Assembly (NCBI GenBank): GCA_937930635.1
Contig: CALHCF010000009.1
Span: 194,702 to 258,701 of the forward strand
Reading direction: 5' to 3'
Origin: an uncultured Rhizobiaceae group bacterium
Lineage (GTDB): Bacteria; Pseudomonadota; Alphaproteobacteria; Rhizobiales; Rhizobiaceae
DNA: 64,000 nucleotides
Shown here: in pieces, positions 7,326-21,964 of the stretch
How the letters are laid out: every line of letters begins with the position of its first letter
How positions within the stretch are numbered: the first letter of the stretch is position 1
The notes under the pieces: generated by a model
What the model was told of the DNA's origin: nothing
What the model saw: only the letters and a program-made list of their open reading frames with translations
Databases searched by the model: none
Translations under genes and position numbers: made by a program

Positions 7326-7570
7326 AGACAGGGATCGGGCCAGGATTTCATCCCGGCCTGACGCTTAACCTTAACGGTTTGTCACATTAACCATCTCTAT
7401 TAGGCGGTGTTTTACCACGCCCAAAAGTAAACAGGTGGTTTCCACAGTCAGGACAATTTGATTCATAATTCGGTCGGTCATTTTGCGCATGATTGTTGCG
7501 CCAAGAATGCCGATGCGGTCTCGACTGACCATAATTGGCAAAACTGACGAAAAGTAGTGAGTACGTCCCA

Positions 7571-8383
7571 ATGAAGTTTTCTATCAAAGCTGCAACCCTG
7601 GCAGTGGTACTTGCCGGCAGTTTCGTATTGCCGTCTCAAAGCATAGCAGGGTCACGTTATGGCACTCCGCCGCCACTGACCCTCAGTCCTGACGTTACAT
7701 CGCCATGGACACTGCAGCTCAAGCCGCTAAAGAGACGGGCCACCCGTTCTGAGCGGCGGCGGGCAAAGCGTCCAAAAGGCTTGCGCGCCGCAAAGCAGCG
7801 TGAATTTCGTGTCCTCAAACCGTTGAAGCGGCGGCGTCAGGCGACAAGAACTCAACGCAGCGGCGTGACGACCACAGCTTTACGGAGTCAAAACAAGAGA
7901 CTGCAGAGATCGATCTCTCCAGAACACAAGCCGGAACTCCTGCCAACTGTCATCAATTACCATGGAAAAGAATCTCCTGGAACGGTGATCATCAACACGC
8001 CCGAGCGACGTCTGTATCTCGTTTTGCCAAATGGCAAAGCGCGCCGTTACGCTGTTGGTGTCGGGAAGCCGGGTTTTGAATGGTCAGGAACCCGCAAGGT
8101 TACCCGCAAGGCAGAGTGGCCGTCCTGGACACCACCCAAGGAAATGATTGCCCGAGAGCGTAAAAAGGGACGCATTCTGCCCAGCTTTATGGCTGGTGGC
8201 CCCAAAAATCCGATGGGCGCCCGCGCGCTGTATCTGGGTTCCACTCTTTATCGCATACACGGCACCAATCAGGCTTGGAGCATTGGACAGGCGGTATCTT
8301 CGGGCTGCATTCGGATGCGCAACGAAGATGTCATGGATCTCTATGATCGGGTGCCGGTCGGGGCGCGGGTTAAGGTCATTTAG
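7571..8383 (+). CDS. L,D-transpeptidase (YkuD domain), copy 1
   Basis: Periplasmic cysteine transpeptidase of the ErfK/YbiS/YcfS/YnhG family, which forms 3-3 peptidoglycan cross-links or attaches proteins to peptidoglycan. The ATG at 7571 opens a signal peptide (AATLAVVLAGSFVLPSQSIAG); an in-frame start at 7535 is less likely. A basic, arginine-rich linker of about 100 residues is followed by the YkuD domain from about residue 135. The catalytic motif is complete: H230 in YRIHGTN and C246 in SSGCIRM. It is 270 residues long. Closely related to the gene at 8586 over the whole catalytic domain, with identical WPSWTPPKEM and GGPKNP segments, so the two are tandem paralogues. Its own terminator follows. 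Confidence 0.93.
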   Translation: MKFSIKAATLAVVLAGSFVLPSQSIAGSRYGTPPPLTLSPDVTSPWTLQLKPLKRRATRSERRRAKRPKGLRAAKQREFRVLKPLKRRRQATRTQRSGVTTTALRSQNKRLQRSISPEHKPELLPTVINYHGKESPGTVIINTPERRLYLVLPNGKARRYAVGVGKPGFEWSGTRKVTRKAEWPSWTPPKEMIARERKKGRILPSFMAGGPKNPMGARALYLGSTLYRIHGTNQAWSIGQAVSSGCIRMRNEDVMDLYDRVPVGARVKVI

Positions 8384-8585: not shown

Positions 8586-9296
8586 ATGTTTCGCACTCTG
8601 GTCGCAACGTTTCTTGTCGGCTTTGCGCTGATATTCAGTGGATCTGTCGTGGTGTCCGATGACGCCCATGCAGCCAAGAAAACTCAGCGTTTTGCGCTGT
8701 TCTCCGCCAAAAAGAAAGAGGCAAAAAAGCCACGCCGCATTTATCGGCGCAGGACGGTTTTGCCGAAATACCGACGCAAAGAGGTCCGTATTTCCACCAA
8801 GGAAAAACCCGGCACCATCATTGTCGATTCGCGCGCAAAATATCTGTATCTCGTGACCGGCAAACGCAAAGCCATCCGATATGGTATCGGCGTTGGCAGG
8901 GAAGGCTTTGGATGGTCAGGCACTGTGAAGCTTGGTCGTAAGAAGAAGTGGCCTTCATGGACACCGCCCAAGGAAATGGTTGAGCGGGAATGGCGGGAAA
9001 ACAAACGCCGGGTCAGCTTCATGAAGGGTGGCCCCAAGAACCCGCTGGGAGCGCGCGCACTCTATCTTTACGATGGCAAGCGCGACACTCAGTTTCGCAT
9101 ACACGGCACCAATGAGCCCTGGTCCATTGGACTGAACATGTCTTCGGGTTGTATCCGCATGGTCAACAAGGACGTCGAGCACCTTTATAAGCGCGCTTCT
9201 GTCGGTGCGAAGGTCGTCGTTATCGGACCGGACGGGAAAGGCCGCCGCCAAGTCTACTCGCGGTTCGTGAATCCAATAGCAGCTCTGTTTGATTAA
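8586..9296 (+). CDS. L,D-transpeptidase (YkuD domain), copy 2
   Basis: Second periplasmic peptidoglycan L,D-transpeptidase, 236 residues. An N-terminal signal peptide (LVATFLVGFALIFSGSVVV, cleavage near AHA-AK) precedes a short, very basic Lys/Arg linker and the YkuD domain from about residue 75. H173 in FRIHGTN and C189 in SSGCIRM form the active site. It differs from copy 1 in the shorter linker and in the 20-residue C-terminal extension after the VVVIG strand. Start ATG follows a purine-rich GGGGGAAAAGG stretch. The terminator between the copies implies separate control; rhizobial genomes carry many such paralogues, so individual roles cannot be assigned. Confidence 0.93.
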   Translation: MFRTLVATFLVGFALIFSGSVVVSDDAHAAKKTQRFALFSAKKKEAKKPRRIYRRRTVLPKYRRKEVRISTKEKPGTIIVDSRAKYLYLVTGKRKAIRYGIGVGREGFGWSGTVKLGRKKKWPSWTPPKEMVEREWRENKRRVSFMKGGPKNPLGARALYLYDGKRDTQFRIHGTNEPWSIGLNMSSGCIRMVNKDVEHLYKRASVGAKVVVIGPDGKGRRQVYSRFVNPIAALFD

Positions 9297-9502: not shown

Positions 9503-10198
9503 TTGTTCAAAAATCGCGTAAATTGCCTGAAATCAGCGTCGGTGCTTGCCGCCGGAATGATTTGCCTTGCAACTTTCTCTTCGTCTGCTCAAGCTGAAGC
9601 GACAATCTCCGTGTTCGGTGGCGCAAACTTTTCTCCGCACTCCAATGTGGATTACGACCTAGGCCCCGGCGCGAATATCGCGCCTGGAAACGTTGGCGTG
9701 GGCTGGGACGGTGCTTCGTTTGAGGCTCCTCCCTATTACGGCGTGCGGGCGACATGGTGGCTCAATTCGATGCCTAACCTCGGTATCGCTGCTGAATTTA
9801 CCCATGCCAAAGTGAAAGCCGACCCGCTACCAGCCGGTTTCTCGACGCTGGAATTCACCGACGGCATAAACTTCGTCACGTTGAACGGTATTTATCGTCA
9901 CAATCTGGGTAATGGGTTCACGCCCTATGCCGGGATCGGTGCCGGTATTTCGGTACCGCATGTTGAGGTTGACGATGGTGCAGGTGGAGCGCCACGCACT
10001 TTCGAATATCAGGTCACAGGATTTGCCGCTCAGGCGTTTGTTGGCGTGGACTATCAGTTGACCGACAGATGGTCTGTATATGGAGAGTTCAAATCCACCT
10101 ACGGTCAGGTCGATGCAGACCTGGAAAATGGTGGAACGCTGGACACCGACATCATCAGCAATCAGGTAATTCTCGGCGTCACGTTCAAAATTTTCTGA
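9503..10198 (+). CDS. Outer-membrane beta-barrel protein, LpxQ (lipid A oxidase)-like
   Basis: Predicted 8- to 10-strand outer-membrane barrel of 231 residues. The TTG at 9503 is taken as the start because it alone gives a complete signal peptide (ASVLAAGMICLATFSSSAQA); an internal ATG at 9557 would cut it. The mature protein opens with ISVFGGANFSPHSNV, alternates polar and aromatic residues and ends in Phe, the usual barrel-assembly signal. Segments such as GVRATWWL, AAEFTHAKVKA, LEFTDGINFVTLN and GTLDTDIISN match what I recall of rhizobial LpxQ, which oxidises the proximal glucosamine of lipid A to aminogluconate. The enzyme function is therefore plausible but not proved; a plain opacity-type porin is the alternative. 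Followed by a terminator. Confidence 0.75.
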   Translation: MFKNRVNCLKSASVLAAGMICLATFSSSAQAEATISVFGGANFSPHSNVDYDLGPGANIAPGNVGVGWDGASFEAPPYYGVRATWWLNSMPNLGIAAEFTHAKVKADPLPAGFSTLEFTDGINFVTLNGIYRHNLGNGFTPYAGIGAGISVPHVEVDDGAGGAPRTFEYQVTGFAAQAFVGVDYQLTDRWSVYGEFKSTYGQVDADLENGGTLDTDIISNQVILGVTFKIF

Positions 10199-10293: not shown

Positions 10294-11595
10294 TTAGCCA
10301 AGCTCAGAGGGTTGATCACCGCCATGGGCCCAGTTCAACAGCTTTATTGTATGCACCACGGGAATTTCTGTCCCGCCACCGATCTGTGTCAGACACCCAA
10401 TATTGCCTGCAGCAATCACGTCCGGGGCCGTGCTTTCAATATTGGCGACCTTACGATCGCGTAACTGGTCGGCAATCTGCGATTGCAGAATGTTGTAGGT
10501 CCCGGCAGAGCCGCAACAAAGATGCGATTCCGGCGCTTCCTTGACTGTAAAACCCGCCGCACGCAGCAAATCTTTGGGCGCATTTCGAACTTTCTGACCA
10601 TGCTGCAATGAACAGGCCGCATGGTAAGCCACGGTCAGGTTCTGTGGATTTTGGGGCTGCGGCAGGTCAAGCGTCGCCAGATATTCGGTGACATCCAATG
10701 CAAGCGCCGACACCTTGGCGGCACGCTCCGCCCATTGAGGGTCGTTGCGCAGCATATAACCATAGTCCTTGATCGTGGTGCCACAGCCGGAGGTGGTGAT
10801 AACAATCGCGTCCAGCCCTCCCCTTTCAATCTCCTGCGACCAGACATCCACCATGTGACGGGCGGCATCCAGAGCCTGTTCTTCACGTCCCATATGGTGC
10901 ACCAGGGAGCCGCAACAGGCTTCGCCTTGCGGCAACACAGTCTCGATGCCGAGGCGTCCAAGCAGTTCGATTGTTGTCCTGTTGATTTCCGCATCCAGCA
11001 CGGGCTGCGCACAGCCGGTCAACAAGGCCACACGTGCGATCTTTTCACTGGATGGAGCAAAGACACCGGGAGATGTGTGAACCTGCGGCGCCTCTATTTT
11101 TGCTGGAGCAAGACGCAACATCGCTGCCAAAGGCTTGAGTGGCGGTACCATATCAAACACCGGAGCAAAGGGCCGCCCCAGCTTTGCCAGACGCAATGCT
11201 GCGCGCATACGACCGGGATAGGGCAATATCGCCGCCAGCATCGCCCGCATGAAACGGGTCAGGACCGGGCGCTTATGGGTTTTTTCAATGTGAACGCGCG
11301 CATGGTCAACCAGATGCATATAGTGAACCCCGGACGGGCATGTGGTCATGCAGGAAAGGCAGGAAAGGCAGCGGTCAATATGGGTTGTTATGTGTTCGTC
11401 AGCCGGCCGGTCGTTTTCCAGCATATCTTTGATCAGATAGATTCGACCCCGTGGCGAATCCAGTTCGTTTCCAAGCGTTACATAGGTTGGACAGGTTGCC
11501 GTGCAAAAGCCGCAATGGACACAGTTGCGCAAGATCGACTCGGCTTCCGCCACACCTGGGTCAGCCAGTTGGGCCAGTGAAAAACTGGTTTGCAT
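10294..11595 (-). CDS. glcF: Glycolate oxidase iron-sulfur subunit GlcF
   Basis: Electron-transfer subunit of membrane-associated glycolate oxidase, passing electrons from the FAD subunits to the quinone pool. 433 residues. Two [4Fe-4S] motifs are clear near the N-terminus: CVHCGFCTATCPT (about residues 25-37) and CLSCLSCMTTCPSG (about 75-88). Two CCG-type cysteine-rich domains follow, with GEACCGSLVHHMG and ESHLCCGSAGTYN, as in heterodisulfide-reductase-like proteins. Its start codon overlaps the glcE stop by one base (TGATG). Last gene of glcDEF. The complex also oxidises D-lactate in E. coli, and the nearby lut genes and lactate-type TRAP transporter make this activity likely. Confidence 0.95.
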   Translation of the reverse strand: MQTSFSLAQLADPGVAEAESILRNCVHCGFCTATCPTYVTLGNELDSPRGRIYLIKDMLENDRPADEHITTHIDRCLSCLSCMTTCPSGVHYMHLVDHARVHIEKTHKRPVLTRFMRAMLAAILPYPGRMRAALRLAKLGRPFAPVFDMVPPLKPLAAMLRLAPAKIEAPQVHTSPGVFAPSSEKIARVALLTGCAQPVLDAEINRTTIELLGRLGIETVLPQGEACCGSLVHHMGREEQALDAARHMVDVWSQEIERGGLDAIVITTSGCGTTIKDYGYMLRNDPQWAERAAKVSALALDVTEYLATLDLPQPQNPQNLTVAYHAACSLQHGQKVRNAPKDLLRAAGFTVKEAPESHLCCGSAGTYNILQSQIADQLRDRKVANIESTAPDVIAAGNIGCLTQIGGGTEIPVVHTIKLLNWAHGGDQPSELG

Positions 11596-12794
11596 CAGCC
11601 CATCCTTCCCGGATTCAGAATGCCTTTGGGATCGAAATTCTTCCTGTATCGATTGCTCAGTGCAGCCAGTGGGGCGGGCTGAGGTTGGAAGACGGGATCC
11701 GCACGGCGCGCAGTTGCATCGGCTCTGATCAACGTGGCATGGCCACCGCCATGAGAACTGACGGCCTCGCGTATCCGGTCCGCCTGCGGTTGACCATCTG
11801 GCATTTCAAGCCAGATCAATCCGCCTTGCCAGTCATAGAATGCGCGGGCATCACACCTGTCGCGGATGTCAGAAACAATTTTATGCCCTCTATCGGGAGT
11901 GCATGAGATACGCCAGACGGCACGCTCCTGATGTTCAGCAAATGGGAGAATGTCACGGACAGCCCACCACTGACCTCGCGAAGTTTCTGCGTCCAGTTGC
12001 TCATGACGACCAAAATCAGCCAGCAGCTTTCCAAGATTTTCGATGCGGTATTCAACCGAAGGCATGAAACCCTCCAGGCGCAACAGCGTGACCGATTGGT
12101 CATCAGCAATCCCCGCTGGCAGATGGGCCGCGCCGGAAACTTCCGCGCTGGACCCCAGGGCCATCGCCATGGCCTGCGTTGCCTGATCATCCGACAAGCC
12201 GCTCAAAGCGAGGGTTTTTTCCGTCTCGGCGCGCGGCAACACCTTAATGGTGATATCGGTGAGAACGGCCAGGGTGCCGTAAGATCCGGTGACACCCTTT
12301 GCCAGGTCATAGCCGGTGACGTTCTTGACGACGCGTCCACCGGATTTAAAAGCCTCTCCACGCCCGGAGACCGCGTTGATACCCAGAATATGGTCGCGCA
12401 CCGACCCCGCCTTCAACCGTCGCGGGCCGCAAATATTGGTGTTTACGAGACCACCCAGTGTCCCCTGCCCGGCTGTTGCACCAAGCAAAGGACCGAGATC
12501 ACAGGGCTCGAACTGCATTTCCTGATGATGCTGATCAAGAAGCGTTTGGATCTCGGCAAGAGGTGTTCCAGCCTTTGCAGAAAGCACCAGCTCTTCGGGT
12601 TCAAAAAGCGTGATGCCCGACAGGCCGCCAAGACTGAGTGTATGGGCAGTCTGTGTTGGATGGCCCATGGCACGTTTGCTGCCCTGTCCGATGACTTCCA
12701 GAGGAATTTCTTCCGCTGCAGCCCACCTCACTGCGGCAAGCACATCGTCATTGGTTTTGGAATGAAAATCTGATTCCGGTTTTTCGCTGGACAT
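11595..12794 (-). CDS. glcE: Glycolate oxidase FAD-binding subunit GlcE
   Basis: Second flavin-binding-type subunit of glycolate oxidase (399 residues). It carries the N-terminal FAD-binding type 4 fold (PLEVIGQGSKRAMG, then GATAGQGTLGGLVNTN and GRVVKNVTGYDLAKGVTGSYG) but is shorter than GlcD and lacks its full oxidase C-terminal domain. GlcE is required for activity in E. coli although the main catalytic flavin is thought to be in GlcD. It overlaps glcD upstream and glcF downstream by one base each, so the three subunits are made in a coupled fashion. Confidence 0.94.
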   Translation of the reverse strand: MSSEKPESDFHSKTNDDVLAAVRWAAAEEIPLEVIGQGSKRAMGHPTQTAHTLSLGGLSGITLFEPEELVLSAKAGTPLAEIQTLLDQHHQEMQFEPCDLGPLLGATAGQGTLGGLVNTNICGPRRLKAGSVRDHILGINAVSGRGEAFKSGGRVVKNVTGYDLAKGVTGSYGTLAVLTDITIKVLPRAETEKTLALSGLSDDQATQAMAMALGSSAEVSGAAHLPAGIADDQSVTLLRLEGFMPSVEYRIENLGKLLADFGRHEQLDAETSRGQWWAVRDILPFAEHQERAVWRISCTPDRGHKIVSDIRDRCDARAFYDWQGGLIWLEMPDGQPQADRIREAVSSHGGGHATLIRADATARRADPVFQPQPAPLAALSNRYRKNFDPKGILNPGRMG

Positions 12795-14290
12795 CAGAAC
12801 CTCGGCAGATCGGGAAACGGCAGTTTGCCTTTGTTGACATGCATCCGACCCAGTTCAGCGCAGCGATGAAGCTGGGGGAACACTTTGCCAGGGTTGAGCA
12901 GCTGATCCGGGTCAAAGGCACATTTGACACGTTGTTGTTGCTTTAGATCATCCTCGGTGAACATTTCAGGCATCAGATCGCGCTTTTCGACGCCCACCCC
13001 GTGCTCCCCCGTCAAAACCCCGCCAACCTCTACGCAGAGCTTGAGGATTTCAGCGCCAAATTCCTCGGTCTTTTCCAACTCGCCGGGCACATTTGCATCA
13101 TACAGTATGAGCGGGTGCAGATTACCATCACCAGCATGAAAGACATTTGCGACCCGCAAGCCGTAGTGGTCAGACAGTTCCCGCATCCGGGCCAGGACGG
13201 TTGGCAGTTCCTTGCGCGGGATTGTGCCGTCCATGCAGTAGTAGTCTGGTGAAATGCGCCCCACCGCCGGAAAGGCCGCTTTGCGTCCTGCCCAGAAGGT
13301 GTTGCGTTCATCTTCACTGTTGGAGATTTGCAGGGTCGATGACTTGTTCTTGCGGGCGATCGCTTCAACCCGATCTATCAGATAGTCGACCTCGGCTTCC
13401 GGCCCGTCGAGTTCGACAATCAACAGCGCCTCGACATCAAGCGGATAACCGGCCTGCACAAAATCCTCCGCCGCGTGAATGGCAGGACGGTCCATCATTT
13501 CCATTCCTCCGGGAATGATGCCATCTGAAATTATGTCAGCCACACACTGGCCACCATCTTCGGAAGTCGGGAAACCCACAAGGAGAGCGCGGGCGGTCTC
13601 CGGCTTTTGCAGGATACGCACAGTCACTTCGGTTACGACACCCAATAATCCTTCCGACCCGGTCATGATGCCCAGAAGGTCGTAGCCTTCGGCATCGAGA
13701 TGCTTGCCCCCGAGGCGCAGGATTTCTCCTTCGATGGTGACAAACTCGATACCCAGCACATTGTTGGCAGTCAGCCCGTATTTGAGACAATGCACACCGC
13801 CGGAATTCTCGGCAACATTTCCACCAATCGAGCAGGCAATCTGTGAGGACGGATCGGGCGCATAATAAAACCCTTCTTCGGCAACCGCATGGGTGATGCC
13901 CAGATTGGTGACACCGGGCTGAACAACTGCGCAGCGGTTGGGATAGTCAATTTCCAGCACACGGCTGAACCGCGACATGACCAGCAGAACGGCATCTTCC
14001 AGCGGCAACGCCCCACCAGACAATGATGTGCCTGAACCGCGGGGGACAACCTTGATGCCTTCGCCGTTGCAGTATTTCAGCACATCAGCCACCTGTTGCA
14101 CAGTTTCCGGCAATACGACCACAAAGGGCAGCGCCCTGTAAGCGGTCAGGCCATCCGACTCAAACACCCGCATGGCGTTCTCGTCAGCCACCACTCCTTC
14201 ACCGGGCACGATCGCCTGGAGAGACGCCACAATCTGCGCACGCCGCTCCAAAACGGCCTGGTCAAGCGCTGGCATTTTAAGGGATGTCAC
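12794..14290 (-). CDS. glcD: Glycolate oxidase catalytic FAD subunit GlcD
   Basis: FAD-linked oxidase of the vanillyl-alcohol oxidase superfamily that oxidises glycolate to glyoxylate and often D-lactate to pyruvate. 498 residues, normal for GlcD. The FAD pyrophosphate-binding loop reads VVPRGSGTSLSGGALP, followed by PDPSSQIACSIGGNVAENSGG; the C-terminal oxidase domain ends with NVFHAGDGNLHP and GVLTGEHGVGVEKRDLM, the family's substrate and flavin contacts. First gene of glcDEF. A palindromic site that recurs near the GntR gene lies 23 bases upstream of the start (14313-14337), which links the operon to that FCD regulator. Confidence 0.95.
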   Translation of the reverse strand: MTSLKMPALDQAVLERRAQIVASLQAIVPGEGVVADENAMRVFESDGLTAYRALPFVVVLPETVQQVADVLKYCNGEGIKVVPRGSGTSLSGGALPLEDAVLLVMSRFSRVLEIDYPNRCAVVQPGVTNLGITHAVAEEGFYYAPDPSSQIACSIGGNVAENSGGVHCLKYGLTANNVLGIEFVTIEGEILRLGGKHLDAEGYDLLGIMTGSEGLLGVVTEVTVRILQKPETARALLVGFPTSEDGGQCVADIISDGIIPGGMEMMDRPAIHAAEDFVQAGYPLDVEALLIVELDGPEAEVDYLIDRVEAIARKNKSSTLQISNSEDERNTFWAGRKAAFPAVGRISPDYYCMDGTIPRKELPTVLARMRELSDHYGLRVANVFHAGDGNLHPLILYDANVPGELEKTEEFGAEILKLCVEVGGVLTGEHGVGVEKRDLMPEMFTEDDLKQQQRVKCAFDPDQLLNPGKVFPQLHRCAELGRMHVNKGKLPFPDLPRF

Positions 14291-14312: not shown

Positions 14313-14337
14313 AAGTGGTCAATAATTTTTACCACTT
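14313..14337. promoter_or_regulatory. Candidate GntR/FCD operator upstream of glcDEF
   Basis: AAGTGGT (14313-14319) and ACCACTT (14331-14337) form a perfect 7-bp inverted repeat with an AT-rich centre. Aligned with 18146-18170 it shares 20 of 25 bases, including AAGTGG, AAT and ACCA. It lies directly upstream of the glcD start, where a repressor would block transcription. Confidence 0.7.
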
Positions 14338-14510
14338 TAGCGATCAAAAGAAAAGATACTCTTTCAGCACTGCATGGCGGCCCAGCCGATCACATGCCGC
14401 CCCAATGATCAAACATGTGACCAAACAAGTGAACCAACAAGCGATCAAAGACGAGCCGCCTGCTCCAATGACCAAGGCCGAAATGCAGTGAGACCAGGTT
14501 TCTGCTGGTG

Positions 14511-16184
14511 TCAGTTCAGCAGCGTCCGTGGCAGCCAGAGCGCCAGGTCCGGGAACGCCATGACCAGGACAACCGCAATGACCTGCAGAATAACGAAAGG
14601 AATAATACCCTGATAGATCTGCTGAATGCGTATTGTTTTGGGGGCGACGCCCTTCATATAGAAGAGCGCAAACCCAAACGGTGGCGTCAGGAAACTGGTT
14701 TGCAGGTTCACCGCCAGCAAGATTGCAAACCAGTAGACGACCTCCTGTTTTGCAACATGGTCGCCAAAGTCCAGTCCAGCAACGATGGGGGCAAAGACGG
14801 GCAACACAATAAGCATGATCTCGATGAAATCGAGGAAGAAGCCCAGCAGAAAAACGATGGCCATGATGGACAGCAACAGGCCCCATGGCCCAAGTCCCAT
14901 GGCCTCGATCAGTGCATCAACCTGCGCTTCACCGCCGATGGCACGGAAAGTATAGGCGAACAGTGTCGCACCAACGAAGATTCCAAAGATCATGGCGTTG
15001 GTGAGCGCTGTTCGCATCACGACATCTTTCAAAGATCCCCAGAAGTGCCTGATCTCCGCACCAAATCCACCACCAACTGCAAGGTCATCAACACCGGCAT
15101 TGGCCATCTGGCCTTCGAAACTGATCTGCTCAAAATCTTCCGTACCATGCCCCTGCCTCAGGTGATTAAAGGTCCAGAAGTAGCTGACAACGGTGGCAAT
15201 TACCCCACTGAGAAATGCAGGCCAGGCCACCTCTCCAAATGGATTGATGCCAAACCCTGAAGCAATACCGAACAGCGCGGCTGAGATGACCCAGACGGCG
15301 ATGCCGAGATAGATGGGGGCAAACCAGACAAAACCGATTGTGGGAACGAGTACGAGGTTGAGAAAGGCGAGCAGCATGGCGCCCGCCGCCCCGACGCCAG
15401 CGGCCTCTGTTGGTGTTGCAAAGCCTCCAAGGATCGAACCGAGAACCAGAACGATCAGCACGACGGGTGGAACAAAAGAACGCAGCACCAGCGCCCACAG
15501 GCCAACCCTGTTTTTGGGTCCGATATCTGCAGAAAGAGGCGGCGCAAGCTCCGGGTTCAGCGAGGCACGGACAAAGATATAGAGGAGATACATGCCCGAC
15601 AGCATGAAACCGGGGATAACGGCAGCCACGAAAAGATTGCCTACCGACCGGCTCAGCAAATCCGCCATCAGTACCAGCATGATTGATGGAGGGATGAGAA
15701 TACCAAGAGTGCCGGAGGCAGCAATCGTGCCAGTGGCGAGGCGCGGATCATATTTGTTTTCCAGCATTACCGGCAAGGCAAGCAATGTCATCATGACAAC
15801 CGAAGCACCAATGATGCCGGTTGTGGCAGCCAGAATGGTGCCCATCAAAGTCACCGCAAGAGCAAGCCCTCCCGGCACCCGGCGCAACAGGACCTGCAGA
15901 CAATTCAGCAGATCACGGGCAACGCCCGAACGCTCGAGCATGGTTCCCATAAAGATGAACATGGGAATAGCGGTGAGGATGAGATTTTCCTCAATGCCAA
16001 AAATGCGCAAAGGAACCGCACCAAATTGCGGCCAGTCAAACAGCCACGGGTCGACAAAAATAGCGATGAACGCGAAAGCCAGGCCAACCCCGCCCAACAC
16101 GAAGGCGACCGGATAACCTGAAAACAGAAACAGCGCGAGCGCCAGAAACATCAGGAACGGCAGATAGGCTCCAAGCCATTCCAT
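14511..16184 (-). CDS. dctM: TRAP transporter large permease subunit DctM
   Basis: Main membrane channel of a tripartite ATP-independent periplasmic transporter, which uses the sodium gradient for organic acid uptake. At 557 residues it is longer than the usual 425-430 because of an insertion of about 100 residues, partly hydrophilic, around residues 310-400 (between GFGINPFGEVAWPAF and LTNAMIFGIFVGA). The DctM signatures are clear: FALFLFSGYPVAFVLGG at the start, MFIFMGTMLERSG, ATTGIIGASVV and GTLGILIPPSIMLVL. It is the last gene of dctPQM, 43 bases after dctQ. The insertion type is found in TRAP systems for 2-oxo and hydroxy acids; substrate is inferred from DctP and the flanking lactate/glycolate genes. 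Confidence 0.93.
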   Translation of the reverse strand: MEWLGAYLPFLMFLALALFLFSGYPVAFVLGGVGLAFAFIAIFVDPWLFDWPQFGAVPLRIFGIEENLILTAIPMFIFMGTMLERSGVARDLLNCLQVLLRRVPGGLALAVTLMGTILAATTGIIGASVVMMTLLALPVMLENKYDPRLATGTIAASGTLGILIPPSIMLVLMADLLSRSVGNLFVAAVIPGFMLSGMYLLYIFVRASLNPELAPPLSADIGPKNRVGLWALVLRSFVPPVVLIVLVLGSILGGFATPTEAAGVGAAGAMLLAFLNLVLVPTIGFVWFAPIYLGIAVWVISAALFGIASGFGINPFGEVAWPAFLSGVIATVVSYFWTFNHLRQGHGTEDFEQISFEGQMANAGVDDLAVGGGFGAEIRHFWGSLKDVVMRTALTNAMIFGIFVGATLFAYTFRAIGGEAQVDALIEAMGLGPWGLLLSIMAIVFLLGFFLDFIEIMLIVLPVFAPIVAGLDFGDHVAKQEVVYWFAILLAVNLQTSFLTPPFGFALFYMKGVAPKTIRIQQIYQGIIPFVILQVIAVVLVMAFPDLALWLPRTLLN

Positions 16185-16227
16185 CAGACTGTACTCTCAG
16201 ATTTACGGATCATCGTTGTTTGTGTCA

Positions 16228-16791
16228 TCAGTTATCGCCCCCCAGCGTGCCGGCTGTCTGATTGTCGGGCAAACTTCCGGTCAGACCGGCAACAGAGCGG
16301 ATAAACCCTGAAATTCCCGCCAGAAAAAGCAAGCCGAACATGATTGGGATTGTTGTCTTAAGTATCCATATATTCGACCATCCGATCACGGATTTCGACA
16401 CCTCCCCCTCAAGAAAGGATGTGTAGGCATTGTTGTAAGAAAAATAGAACCCGATAAGAGAGTAAGGGATCAGGAACATCAAACAGCCCAGCATCTCTAT
16501 GAGATATTTCTTGCGCAGGGATAAACGCTCCCGGATAAGATCAATGCGCACATGAGCCTGCCGCTGATAGGCGTATCCCAGCATCAGGGTAAACAGGATG
16601 GAGTGAAGCCAGTATTCGGACTCCTGAATTTGGGTGGAGTTGAGACCGAATGGCTTTGGAACACCGGCATAGCGCGAAATGACATCGTAGATAACGACAA
16701 TCACCAAAAACAGACCAGCCCAGGAGCCGACACGGCCAAAAAAGGCAACGATGGCGTCAATTGCTGTCGAAAACTTTAGAAGTGACCCCAA
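16228..16791 (-). CDS. dctQ: TRAP transporter small permease subunit DctQ
   Basis: Four-helix membrane subunit that supports the DctM channel (187 residues). Hydrophobic helices are visible near residues 15-40, 55-75, 95-120 and 145-170; the HVRIDLIRERLS segment between helices 2 and 3 is typical of DctQ. Translation starts at TTG (16791), chosen because GGGGAGG lies six bases upstream and no ATG is nearby. It is separated from dctP by a strong hairpin (16874-16911), which would let the binding protein be made in excess. Confidence 0.92.
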   Translation of the reverse strand: MGSLLKFSTAIDAIVAFFGRVGSWAGLFLVIVVIYDVISRYAGVPKPFGLNSTQIQESEYWLHSILFTLMLGYAYQRQAHVRIDLIRERLSLRKKYLIEMLGCLMFLIPYSLIGFYFSYNNAYTSFLEGEVSKSVIGWSNIWILKTTIPIMFGLLFLAGISGFIRSVAGLTGSLPDNQTAGTLGGDN

Positions 16792-16873
16792 CTGTTCCTC
16801 CCCGGCGCAATGACCAACCCTCCCGGCTGGTTTGCGTTGGCCTGTCTATATTTGCGGCGCTGAGCGATGTCAG

Positions 16874-16911
16874 CAAAAGAGGCTCCGGTTAACAAGAGCC
16901 GGAGCCTCTTT
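16874..16911 (-). terminator. Intra-operon hairpin between dctP and dctQ
   Basis: Perfect 13-bp stem (16876-16888 with 16899-16911) with a 10-base loop; TTTTGC follows on the minus strand. It sits 24 bases after the dctP stop and before dctQ. A leaky terminator here would raise DctP over DctQM, a common arrangement for transporters with soluble binding proteins. It might also stabilise the dctP mRNA 3' end. Confidence 0.82.
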
Positions 16912-16934
16912 CTATTTTGACAGGTTACCCCAGC

Positions 16935-17975
16935 CTATTTGAGATAGCCAAGTTCTTTCCAACCTGCATATTCGGCGCGGAAAGCTTTGAGGCTTTCCCA
17001 GGCTTCCTTGAAGTCTGCATTTGCAGCAGCCTGCTCTTCTGCCAGTTCGTTCCAGGTTTTCTCAAGAAGCGCCAGATCCTCTTTTGACCACGTGTGGGTT
17101 TTCACGCCCTTGGAACGCAGCTCTGCAAGTGCTTTACCCTGAATGGCCTCACCTTCCGCCATACCAATCGCGTAATTGGCCTGACAGGCAATCTCGAGTT
17201 GGGCTTTTTGAGTGTCGTTCATGGCATCCCATTTGGCCTTGTTGATGATCAGCTCAAACGTTGTCGACTGCTGATGCCAGCCTGGGAAATAATAGTTCTT
17301 GGCGATCTGATAGAAGCCAAGATTAAGGTCGATGGCAGGCATCGAAAACTCGGTCGCATCGATGGTACCGCGCTCAAGAGCCGGATAGATGTCAGCTGCC
17401 GCAAGAAGCTGTGTGTCAACGCCAAGCTTCTGCATTACCTTTGCGCCCAGACCGAAGAAACGCATTTTCTTGCCCTTCAGATCGGTCACCGACTTAAGCG
17501 GCTCACGGAACCAGCCAGAAGCTTCAGGGGCGATAACGCCACAGATAAGAGCATGAATGCCGTTCTTGGCATAGATTTTCTGATACATGTCCTGGCCACC
17601 ACCATAGTAGAGCCATGCAGCATATTCACCGGCAGCAGGACCAAATGGCACAGCAGAGAACAACGCCAGCGCAGGCTCTTTACCCTGCCAGTAGCCGGAG
17701 GTAGACCAGCCCGCGTCAACAGCACCGGACTTCACCGCATCAAACAGTTCCAGCGCAGGAACAAGCGCACCCGGCTCAAAATATTTCAGCTGGATATCGC
17801 CGCCGGAAATACGGTTGACGTTTTCTTCCAGCTTTTTACCCAGCGTGCCGAGCTGTGTCAGTGACGATGGAAATGTCGCACCCATTTTCAGGCGTACTTT
17901 TTCAGCGGATGCGCTGCTCATCGCCAGGCCGGTTACGGCGGTCGCCAGAATGGCGGATTTGATCAGTTTTTTCAT
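16935..17975 (-). CDS. dctP: TRAP transporter substrate-binding protein DctP, 2-oxo/hydroxy-acid type
   Basis: Periplasmic binding protein that delivers the substrate to DctQM. The ATG at 17975 is preferred over one 57 bases upstream because a strong GGGAGGG site precedes it and it opens the signal peptide (IKSAILATAVTGLAMSSASA). The mature protein has the segment LLAAADIYPALERGTIDATEFS and FYQIAKNYYFPGWHQQ, which closely match TakP-type proteins binding pyruvate and other 2-oxo acids with a sodium ion, and related lactate binders. It heads the dctPQM run; the promoter region is shared with the divergent GntR gene and holds the palindromic operator at 18146-18170. Lactate or glycolate is the inferred substrate. 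Confidence 0.94.
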   Translation of the reverse strand: MKKLIKSAILATAVTGLAMSSASAEKVRLKMGATFPSSLTQLGTLGKKLEENVNRISGGDIQLKYFEPGALVPALELFDAVKSGAVDAGWSTSGYWQGKEPALALFSAVPFGPAAGEYAAWLYYGGGQDMYQKIYAKNGIHALICGVIAPEASGWFREPLKSVTDLKGKKMRFFGLGAKVMQKLGVDTQLLAAADIYPALERGTIDATEFSMPAIDLNLGFYQIAKNYYFPGWHQQSTTFELIINKAKWDAMNDTQKAQLEIACQANYAIGMAEGEAIQGKALAELRSKGVKTHTWSKEDLALLEKTWNELAEEQAAANADFKEAWESLKAFRAEYAGWKELGYLK

Positions 17976-18145
17976 GCTTCCCTCCCGAGGATAGTTGGTT
18001 ATTTCGATGCTGAAATCTGCACCATGATTCAAATCTAACCCTACTTTGAACCAAAAGGCGATTCCTCACTCAAAAATATCCCAGAGGCTCAAAGTCAGCA
18101 ACGTATACATTGGAACATTCATTGTGTCGCCTGAAATTTCCTGCA

Positions 18146-18170
18146 AAGTGGACAACAATGTTGACCATTT
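18146..18170. promoter_or_regulatory. Candidate GntR/FCD operator between dctP and the GntR gene
   Basis: The 19-base core 18149-18167 (TGGACAACAATGTTGACCA) pairs at eight of nine positions around a central A. It lies between divergent dctPQM and gntR-lutABC, 96 bases before the regulator start. A near-copy (20 of 25 bases) precedes glcD, so one regulator probably serves all three transcripts. Confidence 0.75.
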
Positions 18171-18262
18171 ACGATGCCGCCCGGTAGGCTACGCCTGCTG
18201 ACAGCCTGTTTGCGCTTTACTCTTGAGCACAATCCAACCCCGAACCAACGTTCTGCTCCTTC

Positions 18263-19078
18263 ATGATTTTTTCCCAAATTGAACACGACCGGACATCGCG
18301 GGAGGTTGAGCGCCAGATCGAAAATCTCATTCTCGAAGGTGTGTTGCGGGTTGGTGACAAACTGCCCGGCGAACGCGAACTATCCAAATCGCTCAACGTT
18401 TCAAGACCGATTTTGCGCCAGGCTCTCGCACATCTGACCGAGAAGGGACTGCTTATTGCGCAGCATGGAGGCGGGACTTACGTCGCTGATGTTATCGGCA
18501 CCGTTTTTGCGCCACCGGTCGTTACGCTGATCGGCTCCAACGCAAAAGCCAAGGCCGATTATCTGGAATACCGGCGCGAAATTGAAGGCATGACGGCCGC
18601 TCTTGCCGCAAAGCGCATCACAGATGCCGACAAAGCCGTGTTGCAACGTATTATGGAGGATATGCAGTCCGCCCATAACGATCAGCGGGCCGATCGCGAG
18701 ACCGAGATTGATGTCGAGTTTCACAACGCCGTTGGCGAGTGCGCTCACAACATTGTTCTGCTGCACACGCTGCGGTCCTGTTATCGCCTTTTATCGGATG
18801 ATGTGTTTTTGAATCGCGAACTCATTTACAAAAGTGACGGCGCACGCGAAAAACTGCTGGAGCAACATCAGGCCATTCATGCTGCTGTGGTTGGCGGCAT
18901 TGCCGATGCAGCGGCAAAAGCTGCACAGGATCATATTACATTTATCATCGAAGCCACCAGCGATGCTGAACGTCATGATGACCGGCAGTCCGTCTCGCAA
19001 CTTCGCCTCGTTCAACACCACGAACGGCATGACGCCAAACGCAACAAGTCGGTCAGAAAGAGCACGACTGACCATTAA
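18263..19078 (+). CDS. GntR family regulator, FCD subfamily (LldR/GlcC-like)
   Basis: DNA-binding regulator expected to sense lactate, glycolate or a related acid. The N-terminal winged helix-turn-helix spans about residues 8-75 (LRVGDKLPGERELSKSLNVS, then HGGGTYV). The C-terminal all-helical FCD domain carries the usual metal or ligand ligands: the aspartate/histidine pair in EIDVEFHNAVG, the histidine in LLEQHQAIHAA and the later histidine in AAQDHITFII. The last 35 residues are charged and poorly conserved. It stands 12 bases before lutA and is divergent from dctPQM, with a matching operator between them and another at glcD. Repressor is the likely mode, as for LldR, but the sequence does not prove it. 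Confidence 0.92.
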   Translation: MIFSQIEHDRTSREVERQIENLILEGVLRVGDKLPGERELSKSLNVSRPILRQALAHLTEKGLLIAQHGGGTYVADVIGTVFAPPVVTLIGSNAKAKADYLEYRREIEGMTAALAAKRITDADKAVLQRIMEDMQSAHNDQRADRETEIDVEFHNAVGECAHNIVLLHTLRSCYRLLSDDVFLNRELIYKSDGAREKLLEQHQAIHAAVVGGIADAAAKAAQDHITFIIEATSDAERHDDRQSVSQLRLVQHHERHDAKRNKSVRKSTTDH

Positions 19079-19089
19079 TCAGGGCTGCA

Positions 19090-19872
19090 ATGCAGCCCAA
19101 GGGAGATACCCTTTTGACCCAACCTCATGTCGGTCTCTTTGTAACCTGTCTGGTTGATCTGTTCCGTCCCAATATCGGCTTTTCGGCCGTTGAACTGCTG
19201 GAGAAGGCTGGATGTCAGGTCACTGTGCCGCCAGCACAAACCTGCTGCGGCCAGCCTGCCTATAATTCCGGTGATCGGGCCAATACCCGCGCCATTGCCG
19301 AGCAGGTGATCGAGGCTTTTGAAAAATTCGACTATGTGGTGGCTCCGTCGGGCTCGTGCGCGGCAATGCTGAAAAAACACTATCCCGAGCTGTTTGCCGG
19401 CGATGCACAATGGGAGGAACGCACGACGAACTTTGCCGCCAAGGTATTCGAATTGGTTTCTTTCCTGAGCGATGTCATGTTTTTTCAGGAAATCGATGTG
19501 ACGTTCCAGGGCCGTGTAACCTATCACGACAGTTGCTCGGGCCTGCGCGAACTTGGGATCGCCCGCCAGCCCCGCAAACTGCTTCAGCAAGTGGAGGGAC
19601 TGGAACTAAAAGAGATGGAAAACCCCGATGTCTGCTGCGGGTTTGGGGGAACGTTCTGCGTCAAATATTCCGATATCTCCAATGCCATTGTGGAAAAGAA
19701 GACGGCAACCATTGAAGCGGCGGAGGTGGATATGCTGCTGGCCGGAGATCTGGGTTGTCTGATGAATATGGCTGGAAAACTGCAGCGCGAGGGCAAGACA
19801 ACCAAAGTGCGCCATGTTGCGGAAGTTCTGGCGGGGCGGCTGGATGGACCTGCGATTGGAGAAGGCAAATGA
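19090..19872 (+). CDS. lutA: L-lactate utilisation Fe-S protein LutA-like
   Basis: First subunit of the LutABC (YkgEFG-type) system that oxidises L-lactate to pyruvate with Fe-S proteins rather than a flavin dehydrogenase. Two CCG domains are visible: TCCGQPAYNSGD near residue 55 and VCCGFGGTF near 175. ATG at 19090 is possible, but a TTG at 19114, eight bases after GGGAG, gives the family's usual start (TQPHVGLFVTCLVDL) and may be the real one. The stop overlaps lutB by four bases. It follows the regulator by 12 bases, so regulator and enzyme are likely one transcript. Confidence 0.9.
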   Translation: MQPKGDTLLTQPHVGLFVTCLVDLFRPNIGFSAVELLEKAGCQVTVPPAQTCCGQPAYNSGDRANTRAIAEQVIEAFEKFDYVVAPSGSCAAMLKKHYPELFAGDAQWEERTTNFAAKVFELVSFLSDVMFFQEIDVTFQGRVTYHDSCSGLRELGIARQPRKLLQQVEGLELKEMENPDVCCGFGGTFCVKYSDISNAIVEKKTATIEAAEVDMLLAGDLGCLMNMAGKLQREGKTTKVRHVAEVLAGRLDGPAIGEGK

Positions 19873-21293
19873 AAATCACCACGCCGGAGTTCAAATCCAA
19901 CGCAGTCGAAGCGCTGAAAAATCAGACCCTGCAAAAGGCGCTCAGCCATGTGGAGGAAGGCTTCATCGACAAACGGCAAATGGCAGCAGACGCTCTTCCC
20001 GAATTTGAGACGCTGCGCGACAATGCCCGTGACATCAAGAACCACACACTCTCCCATCTCGATCTGTATCTGGAAGCGTATGAGGAGAAGGTGATCGAAT
20101 CCGGTGGACATGTTCACTGGGCGCAAACCGCCGAAGACGCCCGCAACATCGTGCTGGATATTTGTCGCAAAGTCGGCGCGAAGACCGTCACCAAGGGCAA
20201 ATCGATGATCTCGGAAGAAATCGGGATTAACGACTTTCTGGAAGGTGAAGGCATTGAGCCCATTGAGACCGACCTTGGCGAATATATCATCCAGTTGCGC
20301 AACGAGGCACCCAGCCACATTATTGCGCCAGCGGTGCATGTGCTGAAAGAACAGGTGGAAGAAGATTTCCGCGCCACCCATACGCACTTGCCCGAAGATC
20401 GCAATCTTGAAGAGCCGGAAACCCTGCTTGATGAAGCGCGTACCGTGTTGCGGCAAAAATTCCTCGATGCCGATGTTGGTATAACCGGAGCCAATTTCCT
20501 GATCGCAGAGACCGGCACCTCAATCATTGTCACCAATGAGGGCAATGGCGATCTGACACAGACGCTCCCCAAGGTGCACATCGTTTTGGCTTCACTGGAG
20601 AAAATTACACCAACTCTGGAAGATGTCAGCCAGATCCTGCGGGTGCTCGCCCGTTCCGCCACCGGTCAGGACATGTCTGTCTACACCACATTCTCTACCG
20701 GGCCGCGCCGGGAAAGCGACGTTGACGGCCCCGAGGAATACCATGTCGTTTTGCTGGACAATGGCCGCACCAACATGGTGGGAACCGAGTTTCAGGATAT
20801 GCTGCGCTGTATCCGCTGTGGTGCCTGCATGAACCATTGTCCAGTCTATCACGCTGTTGGTGGACACGCCTATGGCTGGGTCTATCCCGGCCCCATGGGC
20901 GCTGTCCTCACCCCTTCATTGACGGGTGTGGACAAGGGCGGACAACTGCCAAACGCTTCAACATTTTGTGGACGCTGTGAGGCAGTTTGCCCGATGCGCA
21001 TTCCGCTACCCAAGATGATGCGCCACTGGCGCGAGCGAGAGTTTGAACGCAATCTCAACCCGACTGCCCAACGCTTTGGCCTGAAATTCTGGGCCTGGTT
21101 TGCCAAACGCCCAAGGCTCTATGGGCTGGGTGCGAAAATCGCCATGCGTGGTTTAGCGATAATGGCAGGATCAAAAGGTCGCCTTTCCTTTATGCCGCTT
21201 GGCAGAGGCTGGACGAAATATCGTGATATGCCTGCACCGGAAGGAAAGACCTTCCAGCAGATGTGGGCCGAAAAGCAGGTGGGCAAGACATGA
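19869..21293 (+). CDS. lutB: L-lactate utilisation Fe-S protein LutB-like
   Basis: Large subunit of LutABC, 474 residues from the ATG at 19869, which overlaps the lutA stop (ATGA); earlier in-frame codons lie inside lutA. An N-terminal LUD domain (about residues 65-295, with TKGKSMISEEIGIN and GANFLIAETGTSIIVTNEGN) is followed by a ferredoxin-like region holding two [4Fe-4S] motifs, CIRCGACMNHCPVY and CGRCEAVCPMRIPL. The C-terminal tail is typical of LutB/YkgF. It acts with LutA and LutC at the membrane or in the cytoplasm, probably passing electrons to quinone. The context, with glcDEF and a TRAP importer, supports lactate as the substrate. Confidence 0.93.
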   Translation: MKITTPEFKSNAVEALKNQTLQKALSHVEEGFIDKRQMAADALPEFETLRDNARDIKNHTLSHLDLYLEAYEEKVIESGGHVHWAQTAEDARNIVLDICRKVGAKTVTKGKSMISEEIGINDFLEGEGIEPIETDLGEYIIQLRNEAPSHIIAPAVHVLKEQVEEDFRATHTHLPEDRNLEEPETLLDEARTVLRQKFLDADVGITGANFLIAETGTSIIVTNEGNGDLTQTLPKVHIVLASLEKITPTLEDVSQILRVLARSATGQDMSVYTTFSTGPRRESDVDGPEEYHVVLLDNGRTNMVGTEFQDMLRCIRCGACMNHCPVYHAVGGHAYGWVYPGPMGAVLTPSLTGVDKGGQLPNASTFCGRCEAVCPMRIPLPKMMRHWREREFERNLNPTAQRFGLKFWAWFAKRPRLYGLGAKIAMRGLAIMAGSKGRLSFMPLGRGWTKYRDMPAPEGKTFQQMWAEKQVGKT

Positions 21294-21964
21294 GCGCCCG
21301 CGACGCAATCTTGAGCAAAATCCGCAATCAGGTTGCTGGTGATGAAGACCAGACGGCCCGCCGTGCCGCGGTGGCAAACCGGCTGGCAACTGCGCCCAAG
21401 GGCACCATCCCGGCACGGGGGCAGCTCAACACACGTGACCGGCTCAAACTTTTCTGCCAGCGGGCAGAAGCCGTTTCAACAACCACTGTCACTGTGAAAT
21501 CCTATGATGATGTGCCGGAAGCGGTGGCGGAATATCTGCGCAACCGTAACCTGCCTCAGGCGGTTCGGATGGGCGATGACGAGCGTCTTGGCGGTGCGGA
21601 CTGGTCGAAAACGCCGGCCCTGACCAAAGATGTCGGTCCCAGTGACGGCAGCGACCTTGTGGGGCTCAGCCATGCGACCTGTGGGGTCGCCGAGACCGGG
21701 ACACTGGTGCTGACTTCCGGTTCGCAAAATCCGACAACTGTGAATTTCCTGCCGGAGAATCATATCGTGGTGATCCACGTTTCTGATATTGCGGGAGACT
21801 ACGAAACAGCGCTTGATCAGGTGCGCCAAATGAACGGGAAAGGGCGGATGCCCCGCACCGTCAACATGGTCACCGGTCCTTCGCGTTCAGGCGATATCGA
21901 ACAGAAGATCCTGCTGGGGGCGCACGGCCCACGCAGCCTGCATATTGTTGTTGTGGACGACTAG
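21290..21964 (+). CDS. lutC: L-lactate utilisation protein LutC-like (LUD domain)
   Basis: Third LutABC component, 224 residues, made of a single LUD domain. The ATG at 21290 overlaps the lutB stop by four bases and gives the expected N-terminus (SARDAILSKIRNQ). Family segments include GVAETGTLVLTSG and FLPENHIVVIHVSDI, and the end reads GAHGPRSLHIVVVD. LUD domains resemble the sugar-isomerase fold and have no obvious catalytic cysteine. The exact part in lactate oxidation is not settled for the family, but loss of any of the three abolishes growth on L-lactate in Bacillus. No clear terminator follows. Confidence 0.92.
   Translation: MSARDAILSKIRNQVAGDEDQTARRAAVANRLATAPKGTIPARGQLNTRDRLKLFCQRAEAVSTTTVTVKSYDDVPEAVAEYLRNRNLPQAVRMGDDERLGGADWSKTPALTKDVGPSDGSDLVGLSHATCGVAETGTLVLTSGSQNPTTVNFLPENHIVVIHVSDIAGDYETALDQVRQMNGKGRMPRTVNMVTGPSRSGDIEQKILLGAHGPRSLHIVVVDD

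Follow-up and report, generated by a model that had tools for sequence, protein, structure and literature searches.

A long-spaced palindromic operator before glycolate oxidase and lactate-utilization genes of a Rhizobiaceae bacterium, and the PdhR-like repressor that very probably acts on it

What purpose is served by two similar palindromes, one upstream of the glycolate oxidase gene glcD and one between the importer gene dctP and the regulator gene gntR, in the genome of an uncultured Rhizobiaceae group bacterium? Both lie within 64,000 nucleotides of GenBank assembly GCA_937930635.1 (contig CALHCF010000009.1, positions 194,702 to 258,701 of the forward strand); this whole stretch is referred to below as the window. 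Direct alignment of the two 25-mers gives identity at 20 of 25 positions. Dyad symmetry extends to 10 of 12 pairs over 25 bp in each site and, over the inner 19 bp, to 7 of 9 pairs in one and 8 of 9 in the other. Both sites have the spacing TGG-N13-CCA, equivalent to TGGT-N11-ACCA (N11, eleven bases between half-sites). A first-pass annotation of the window had thus described the matching pair, the 19-base dyads and their spacing correctly. It erred in placing the GntR gene between the sites: gntR lies beyond the second one, and dctM, dctQ and dctP fill the interval. We conclude that the palindromes are very probably operators of the adjacent GntR/FCD protein, which would act at them as a PdhR-like repressor of 2-hydroxy-acid use.

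A weight matrix trained on 132 relatives' sites and none of the window's own gives 33.7 bits to the glcD site and 26.1 bits to the gntR site; the next best position in the 64-kb window scores 11.1. To follow the sites across relatives, 185 loci were deduplicated to 175. A close orthologue of the regulator (47% identity or more with the window protein) is present in 100 of these, which include the own locus and come nearly all from the window's family; 43 are more distant alphaproteobacterial loci, four of which (L112, L113, L114 and L164) belong to that same family, and 32 lie outside the Alphaproteobacteria. All 17 named loci that were found, from Mesorhizobium, Chelativorans, Pseudaminobacter, Hoeflea, Nitratireductor and metagenome-assembled genomes (one titled uncultured Rhodobacteraceae), carry the dyad 72-121 bp upstream of the regulator gene; ten have a separate copy near glcD, and in seven a short divergent spacer holds one site for both genes. 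Of the 100 close-orthologue loci, 91 have a site between -130 and -40 relative to the regulator gene with 10 or more of the 14 half-site bases in place. Upstream of glcD, a site of at least 15 bits is present in 43 of 43 relatives' loci that contain both glcD and gntR, and such a site occurs in 22 of 24 loci whose neighbour is a more distant glcD-like gene. The scan of relatives upstream of glcD and gntR, which the first-pass annotation had suggested as a check, therefore finds the motif conserved at both genes.

Genomes picked for lacking the regulator give the opposite result. From the family we selected 55 in which no match to the regulator surpasses E 2.4e-33. A glcD match is present in 48, and among the best 30 of these, which were scored, none reaches 15 bits (highest 10.6). 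The site therefore comes and goes with the regulator, subject to the kinship among these genomes. The sole same-genus genome in the sample (G082) is without the regulator (best match E 7e-4), which points to a patchy distribution of the regulon inside the genus as well. Two loci from the regulator-less set, L270 and L271, carry a weak, decayed-looking operator 99 bp before glcD (10.6 and 7.2 bits).

Within its own 3.04-Mb genome, a sequence-only model of 50 relatives' sites found three places at E <= 10 when 150 of 947 first-look candidates were scored: glcD (E 0.0017), glcB (0.0021) and gntR (0.20). All three precede 2-hydroxy-acid or glyoxylate genes; as the genome is 77.8% complete, sites may be missing from the scan. 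The site before glcB, which encodes malate synthase G, lies at L022:1478-1519 (G000:C23), its core being 23-41 bp upstream of the ATG, and shares 23 of 25 bases with the glcD 25-mer. In this genome, glcB can be added to the predicted regulon. We rejected it as a general member: among 30 loci compared (the own locus and 29 relatives', out of 141 genomes with a match), the motif is found in the own genome only. One of the 29 has a bare TGG-N13-CCA, the rest of the motif being absent.

The tripartite ATP-independent periplasmic (TRAP) importer dctPQM is a likely member of the predicted regulon, not a firm one. In the window, dctP starts 171 bp from the gntR site. A family search returned nine other dctP loci in eight genomes; of the eight loci scored (L252 was dropped), three (L245, L248 and L249) show dctP preceded by a site of more than 20 bits. 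Genome G025 has its regulator on a separate contig and G012 about 50 kb off, and two of the dctP sites are therefore not just shared with gntR; L248 adjoins its own 38%-identical regulator. The best matches of DctP among sequences of solved structures are 2hzk (SmoM) and 7ug8 (a ketoacid-binding protein), with 7e9y (lactate-binding TTHA0766) weaker. The first-pass annotation had drawn all these genes into a single alpha-hydroxy-acid regulon. Conservation and co-occurrence make one regulon of glcDEF and gntR-lutABC well supported at the sequence level, and the proposal extends to dctPQM only in part (3 of 8 loci).

The position of the operators suggests how the regulator would work. Alignment of the 91 loci shows TTGACCA as the right half-site and, 18 bp past TTGACC, the pattern TANNNT (T 81%, A 84%, T 78%). 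The right half of the gntR-lutABC operator is, as predicted from this alignment, also the -35 box. A protein on the dyad would consequently block RNA polymerase, so that the regulator most likely acts as a repressor of its own gene and of lutABC. Before glcD, 44 loci including the window have TT at -19/-18 (77% and 86%), then G (50%); on this pattern the -10 box would fall within the operator. In the window, the promoter of glcD has the TT at -19/-18 and no clear -35. Overlap of operator and promoter elements, as found here, is in keeping with a DNA-bound repressor of glc and lut genes. With inducer absent, the regulator would sit on TGGT-N11-ACCA, covering the -35 box of gntR-lutABC and either the promoter of glcDEF or the stretch just upstream of its start codon; in this genome it would also sit before the malate synthase G gene. 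Its release by a 2-hydroxy acid, either glycolate or lactate, or by pyruvate would switch on uptake, oxidation and glyoxylate assimilation together.

Two simpler accounts of the palindromes fare poorly. Chance similarity of two AT-rich inverted repeats can appeal to the AT-rich centre and to nothing else; the relatives-only matrix puts both sites at the top of the window, the weaker one by 15 bits, and their conservation likewise leads us to reject a chance origin, whose probability we consider negligible. A different regulator might bind the dyads, the GntR gene being a bystander, and the pairing of regulator and site is indeed drawn here from sequence comparison. This we consider improbable: the presence of the site tracks that of the regulator, FadR-subfamily proteins and LldR have the same TGGT/ACCA half-site, and the regulator's own gene is nearly always preceded by a site. 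Several observations nevertheless weigh against the adjacent protein as a PdhR-like repressor of the whole set. Among the three places listed by the genome scan, the gntR site has the poorest E value (0.20), which is non-significant alone. Nine of the 100 close-orthologue loci fail the site test: the upstream region of L158 is cut by a contig end, the site of L118 lies at -184, and seven have no site in the stretch scored. The motif is absent from the 29 relatives' glcB loci examined, of which 22 belong to regulator-bearing genomes, and five of eight relatives' dctP loci have no site above 10 bits. The positive loci were chosen for having glcD and gntR together, and related genomes are not independent. 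Finally, the count of 43 of 43 is partly circular because the matrix was trained partly on those loci; that of 0 of 30 is not.

How unusual is the spacing? We scanned upstream of the regulator for T[GT]G[AT]-Nk-[AT]C[AC]A with k from 0 to 18, taking expectations from mononucleotide shuffles. Close orthologues have k = 11 in 82 of 100 loci (5.9 expected), followed by k = 10 in 19 (6.5), k = 3 in 12 (6.8) and k = 8 in 11 (5.5), and the distant alphaproteobacterial loci have k = 11 in 31 of 43 (2.2). Outside the Alphaproteobacteria, k = 3 occurs in 28 of 32 loci (3.0 expected), together with k = 11 in 16 (2.9), k = 4 in 8 (2.5) and k = 10 in 8 (2.5). On the two sides of the 40 strict N3 palindromes in 28 of these loci, an extra half-site at an offset of precisely +8 was counted for 14 of 80 sides, from 14 loci; every other offset from 4 to 16 gave 0 to 3 of 80. 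Judged by these positions, most of the non-alphaproteobacterial k = 11 excess is the third half-site at +8. Weaker extra boxes 7-12 nt from site centres are already known for the family (PMC4494728; papers are cited here by PMC number for the portions of their text that were available). A quick tree of 92 proteins contained 20 of the 100 close orthologues (random within identity classes), the first 36 of the 43 distant alphaproteobacterial proteins, all 32 non-alphaproteobacterial ones, the window protein and three E. coli proteins, with 28 of 88 inner branches open. On it, the N11 and N3 labels require 3 changes as against 22.9 for shuffled labels, with L178 (alphaproteobacterial, both spacings) labelled N3 and 23 rows without a clear site uncounted. 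By these motif counts the long spacing is real and goes with the alphaproteobacterial regulators. The suggestion in the first-pass annotation that a spacing unlike that usual for FadR-family operators may define a new site class survives as to the spacing, and the class is not wholly new (PMC5343134). Some upstream regions hold two sites: L098 and L103, from other Alphaproteobacteria, carry paired N11 sites upstream of the regulator at a distance of 30 bp, or about three helix turns, the L103 pair lying between dctPQM and the regulator; in the non-alphaproteobacterial L194, an N3 site and an N11 site stand 21 bp from each other upstream of gntR.

The regulators themselves give little sign of the change. 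All 100 close orthologues have 28 residues between the wing and the FCD domain, a length shared by 39 of the 43 more distant alphaproteobacterial proteins and by 28 of the 32 from outside the Alphaproteobacteria, and the recognition helix is near that of PdhR (SRPILRQAL versus SRPSLREAI). Half-site reading therefore shows no visible change, nor is the linker any longer. We rejected a longer linker as the cause of N11, the 28 residues being common to nearly all N11 and N3 regulators.

Either one dimer would open differently or two dimers would share the site, and the +8 half-sites make the second reading attractive; the two differ on binding mode alone, and both fit within the explanation preferred above. 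That one dimer spans both outer half-sites, its DNA-binding domains arranged differently, seems to us only just short of an even prospect. Alphaproteobacterial operators have just two conserved half-sites, which speaks for this arrangement. The linker is, however, as long as in N3 binders and the helix nearly the same, and 8 bp of DNA moves the half-sites about 27 Å further apart and round the helix. Two overlapping dimers 8 bp apart, each anchored on an outer TGGT and having a poor inner half, would amount to a PdhR-type operator minus its middle half-site. We consider this arrangement plausible, at less than even likelihood. It gains from the third half-site exactly 8 bp on in 14 of 28 non-alphaproteobacterial N3 loci, where the outer spacing is N11, and from the likeness of linker length and recognition helix in N11 and N3 regulators; the other 14 of the 28 loci lack such a half-site, and the inner halves of the alphaproteobacterial sites are not conserved as ACCA. 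NanR offers a precedent, since three of its dimers pack closely and cooperatively on closely spaced repeats, yet this packing needs a 32-residue N-terminal extension (PMC8012715). In the window protein the GntR domain starts at residue 12, and there is little room for such an extension. Because a third half-site at +8 yields the same outer spacing, N11 may be a reduced two-dimer operator. We propose, tentatively and with some doubt, that alphaproteobacterial PdhR-like repressors use a two-dimer operator with an 8-bp half-site pitch, in which the middle one of the three half-sites (left, right, right+8) borne by many PdhR-type operators elsewhere was lost, turning an N3 palindrome plus helper box into N11 with half-site letters and linker unchanged.

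The features of the locus are collected in Table 1. The gntR start lies 93 bp past the end of operator 2 with lutA, lutB and lutC close behind, apparently as one operon; glcD, glcE and glcF form a leftward run from operator 1. In some relatives a DUF3422 gene occupies the place of the window's dctPQM between glcD and gntR (L003:8239-9564, L004, L011 and L015; Pfam PF11902 was scored for L003, and the other three are alike by look). Elsewhere in the window, the adjacent genes at 7535-8383 and 8586-9296 have sequences that are similar by eye, the second with a YkuD (L,D-transpeptidase) domain, and a beta-barrel outer-membrane protein gene follows the pair at 9503-10198.

Table 1. Operators, inferred promoter elements and genes of the locus (positions in the window; FAD, flavin adenine dinucleotide)
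Feature	Position	Strand	Description
Operator 1	14313-14337		25-mer AAGTGGTCAATAATTTTTACCACTT, upstream of glcD
Operator 1 core	14316-14334		TGGTCAATAATTTTTACCA, 26-44 bp before glcD GTG start
Operator 2	18146-18170		25-mer AAGTGGACAACAATGTTGACCATTT, between dctP and gntR
Operator 2 core	18149-18167		TGGACAACAATGTTGACCA
Inferred -35 box of gntR-lutABC	18161-18166	+	TTGACC, inside operator 2; from 91-locus alignment
Inferred -10 box	18185-18190	+	TAGGCT, 18 bp after -35 box; from 91-locus alignment
gntR	18263-19078	+	FCD/FadR-subfamily regulator, PdhR/LldR/GlcC-like; Pfam GntR + FCD
lutA-like	19090-19872	+	Cysteine-rich protein; Pfam CCG
lutB	19869-21293	+	LutB/LldF; TIGR00273 above cut-off
lutC-like	21290-21964	+	LUD-domain protein; Pfam LUD_dom
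dctP	16935-17975	-	TRAP solute-binding protein; Pfam DctP
dctQ	16228-16791	-	Small TRAP permease subunit; Pfam DctQ
dctM	14511-16184	-	Large TRAP permease subunit; Pfam DctM, TIGR00786
glcD	12794-14290	-	Glycolate oxidase FAD subunit; best models GlcD, below NCBIfam cut-offs
glcE	11595-12794	-	Best model GlcE, 272 vs 284 bits
glcF	10294-11595	-	Iron-sulfur subunit; NF008434 above cut-off

The window regulator belongs to the GntR/FCD proteins, with both Pfam domains above the gathering score (GntR, E 1.1e-20; FCD, E 7e-20). Operators of the FadR/FCD subfamily are typically GT-N3-AC or GT-N2-AC (PMC4494728), a form that the close orthologues depart from, with N11 predominant and N3 in 12 of 100 loci where 6.8 are expected. 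Membership is decided by domain build, and the N11 operator is a variant. The protein stays below the cut-offs of its best NCBIfam models, PdhR (NF007001, 195.7 versus 330 bits), LldR (NF007741, 177.6 versus 311) and GlcC (NF007442, 153.9 versus 301). Orthology to E. coli GlcC is unsupported, GlcC falling in a separate starred clade of the quick tree.

The kind of system is largely known: a spacer difference and a GntR repressor of glcDEF are already in print. In the Alphaproteobacteria, GlcR of Paracoccus denitrificans (Pden_4400), a GntR/FadR protein of the GlcC/PdhR/LldR group beside glcDEF, represses these genes and is loosened by glycolate; the words 'motif', 'lutabc' and 'trap transporter' occur 0 times in the available text of that report (PMC11323563). 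Alphaproteobacterial GlcC motifs differ in spacer length from those of beta- and gammaproteobacteria in the RegPrecise GlcC regulogs (PMC5343134). The GlcC text available from that source gives no spacer length, and the phenomenon is most likely the same as N11, although E. coli GlcC itself belongs to another clade than the window protein on the quick tree. The E. coli LldR box, AAnTGGTCnGACCAnTT, resembles AAnTGGTC...GACCAnTT of the window in its outer letters, and LldR controls lactate and glc genes; its halves are 8 bp closer, however, and LldR is called an activator of glc (PMC10272880). B. subtilis LutR is, like the proposed regulator, a GntR-family repressor of lutABC, but its operator is TCATC-N1-GATGA (PMC11734750). 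Our literature search, conducted outside most subscription papers and supplementary files, did not find the N11 operator or the glc-lut-TRAP-glcB set described.

E. coli PdhR is among the nearest known systems. Like the window regulator it has a GntR-FCD build, with 37 of 67 residues identical in the DNA-binding region, the same linker length and TGGT/ACCA half-sites, and it controls glcDEFGBA including glcB (PMC3265435). Its half-sites are N3 apart before E. coli pdhR and N11 apart here, where sites stand before glc, gntR-lut and glcB and, among the 150 of 947 candidates scored, at no other place in the genome. The locus thus presents a clean, testable case of a repressor family that shifts operator spacing by 8 bp with half-site and linker kept, and it makes glycolate and lactate regulons of Rhizobiaceae readable from sequence. 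The apparent recruitment of malate synthase G, so far in this genome only, mirrors the glc operon of E. coli.

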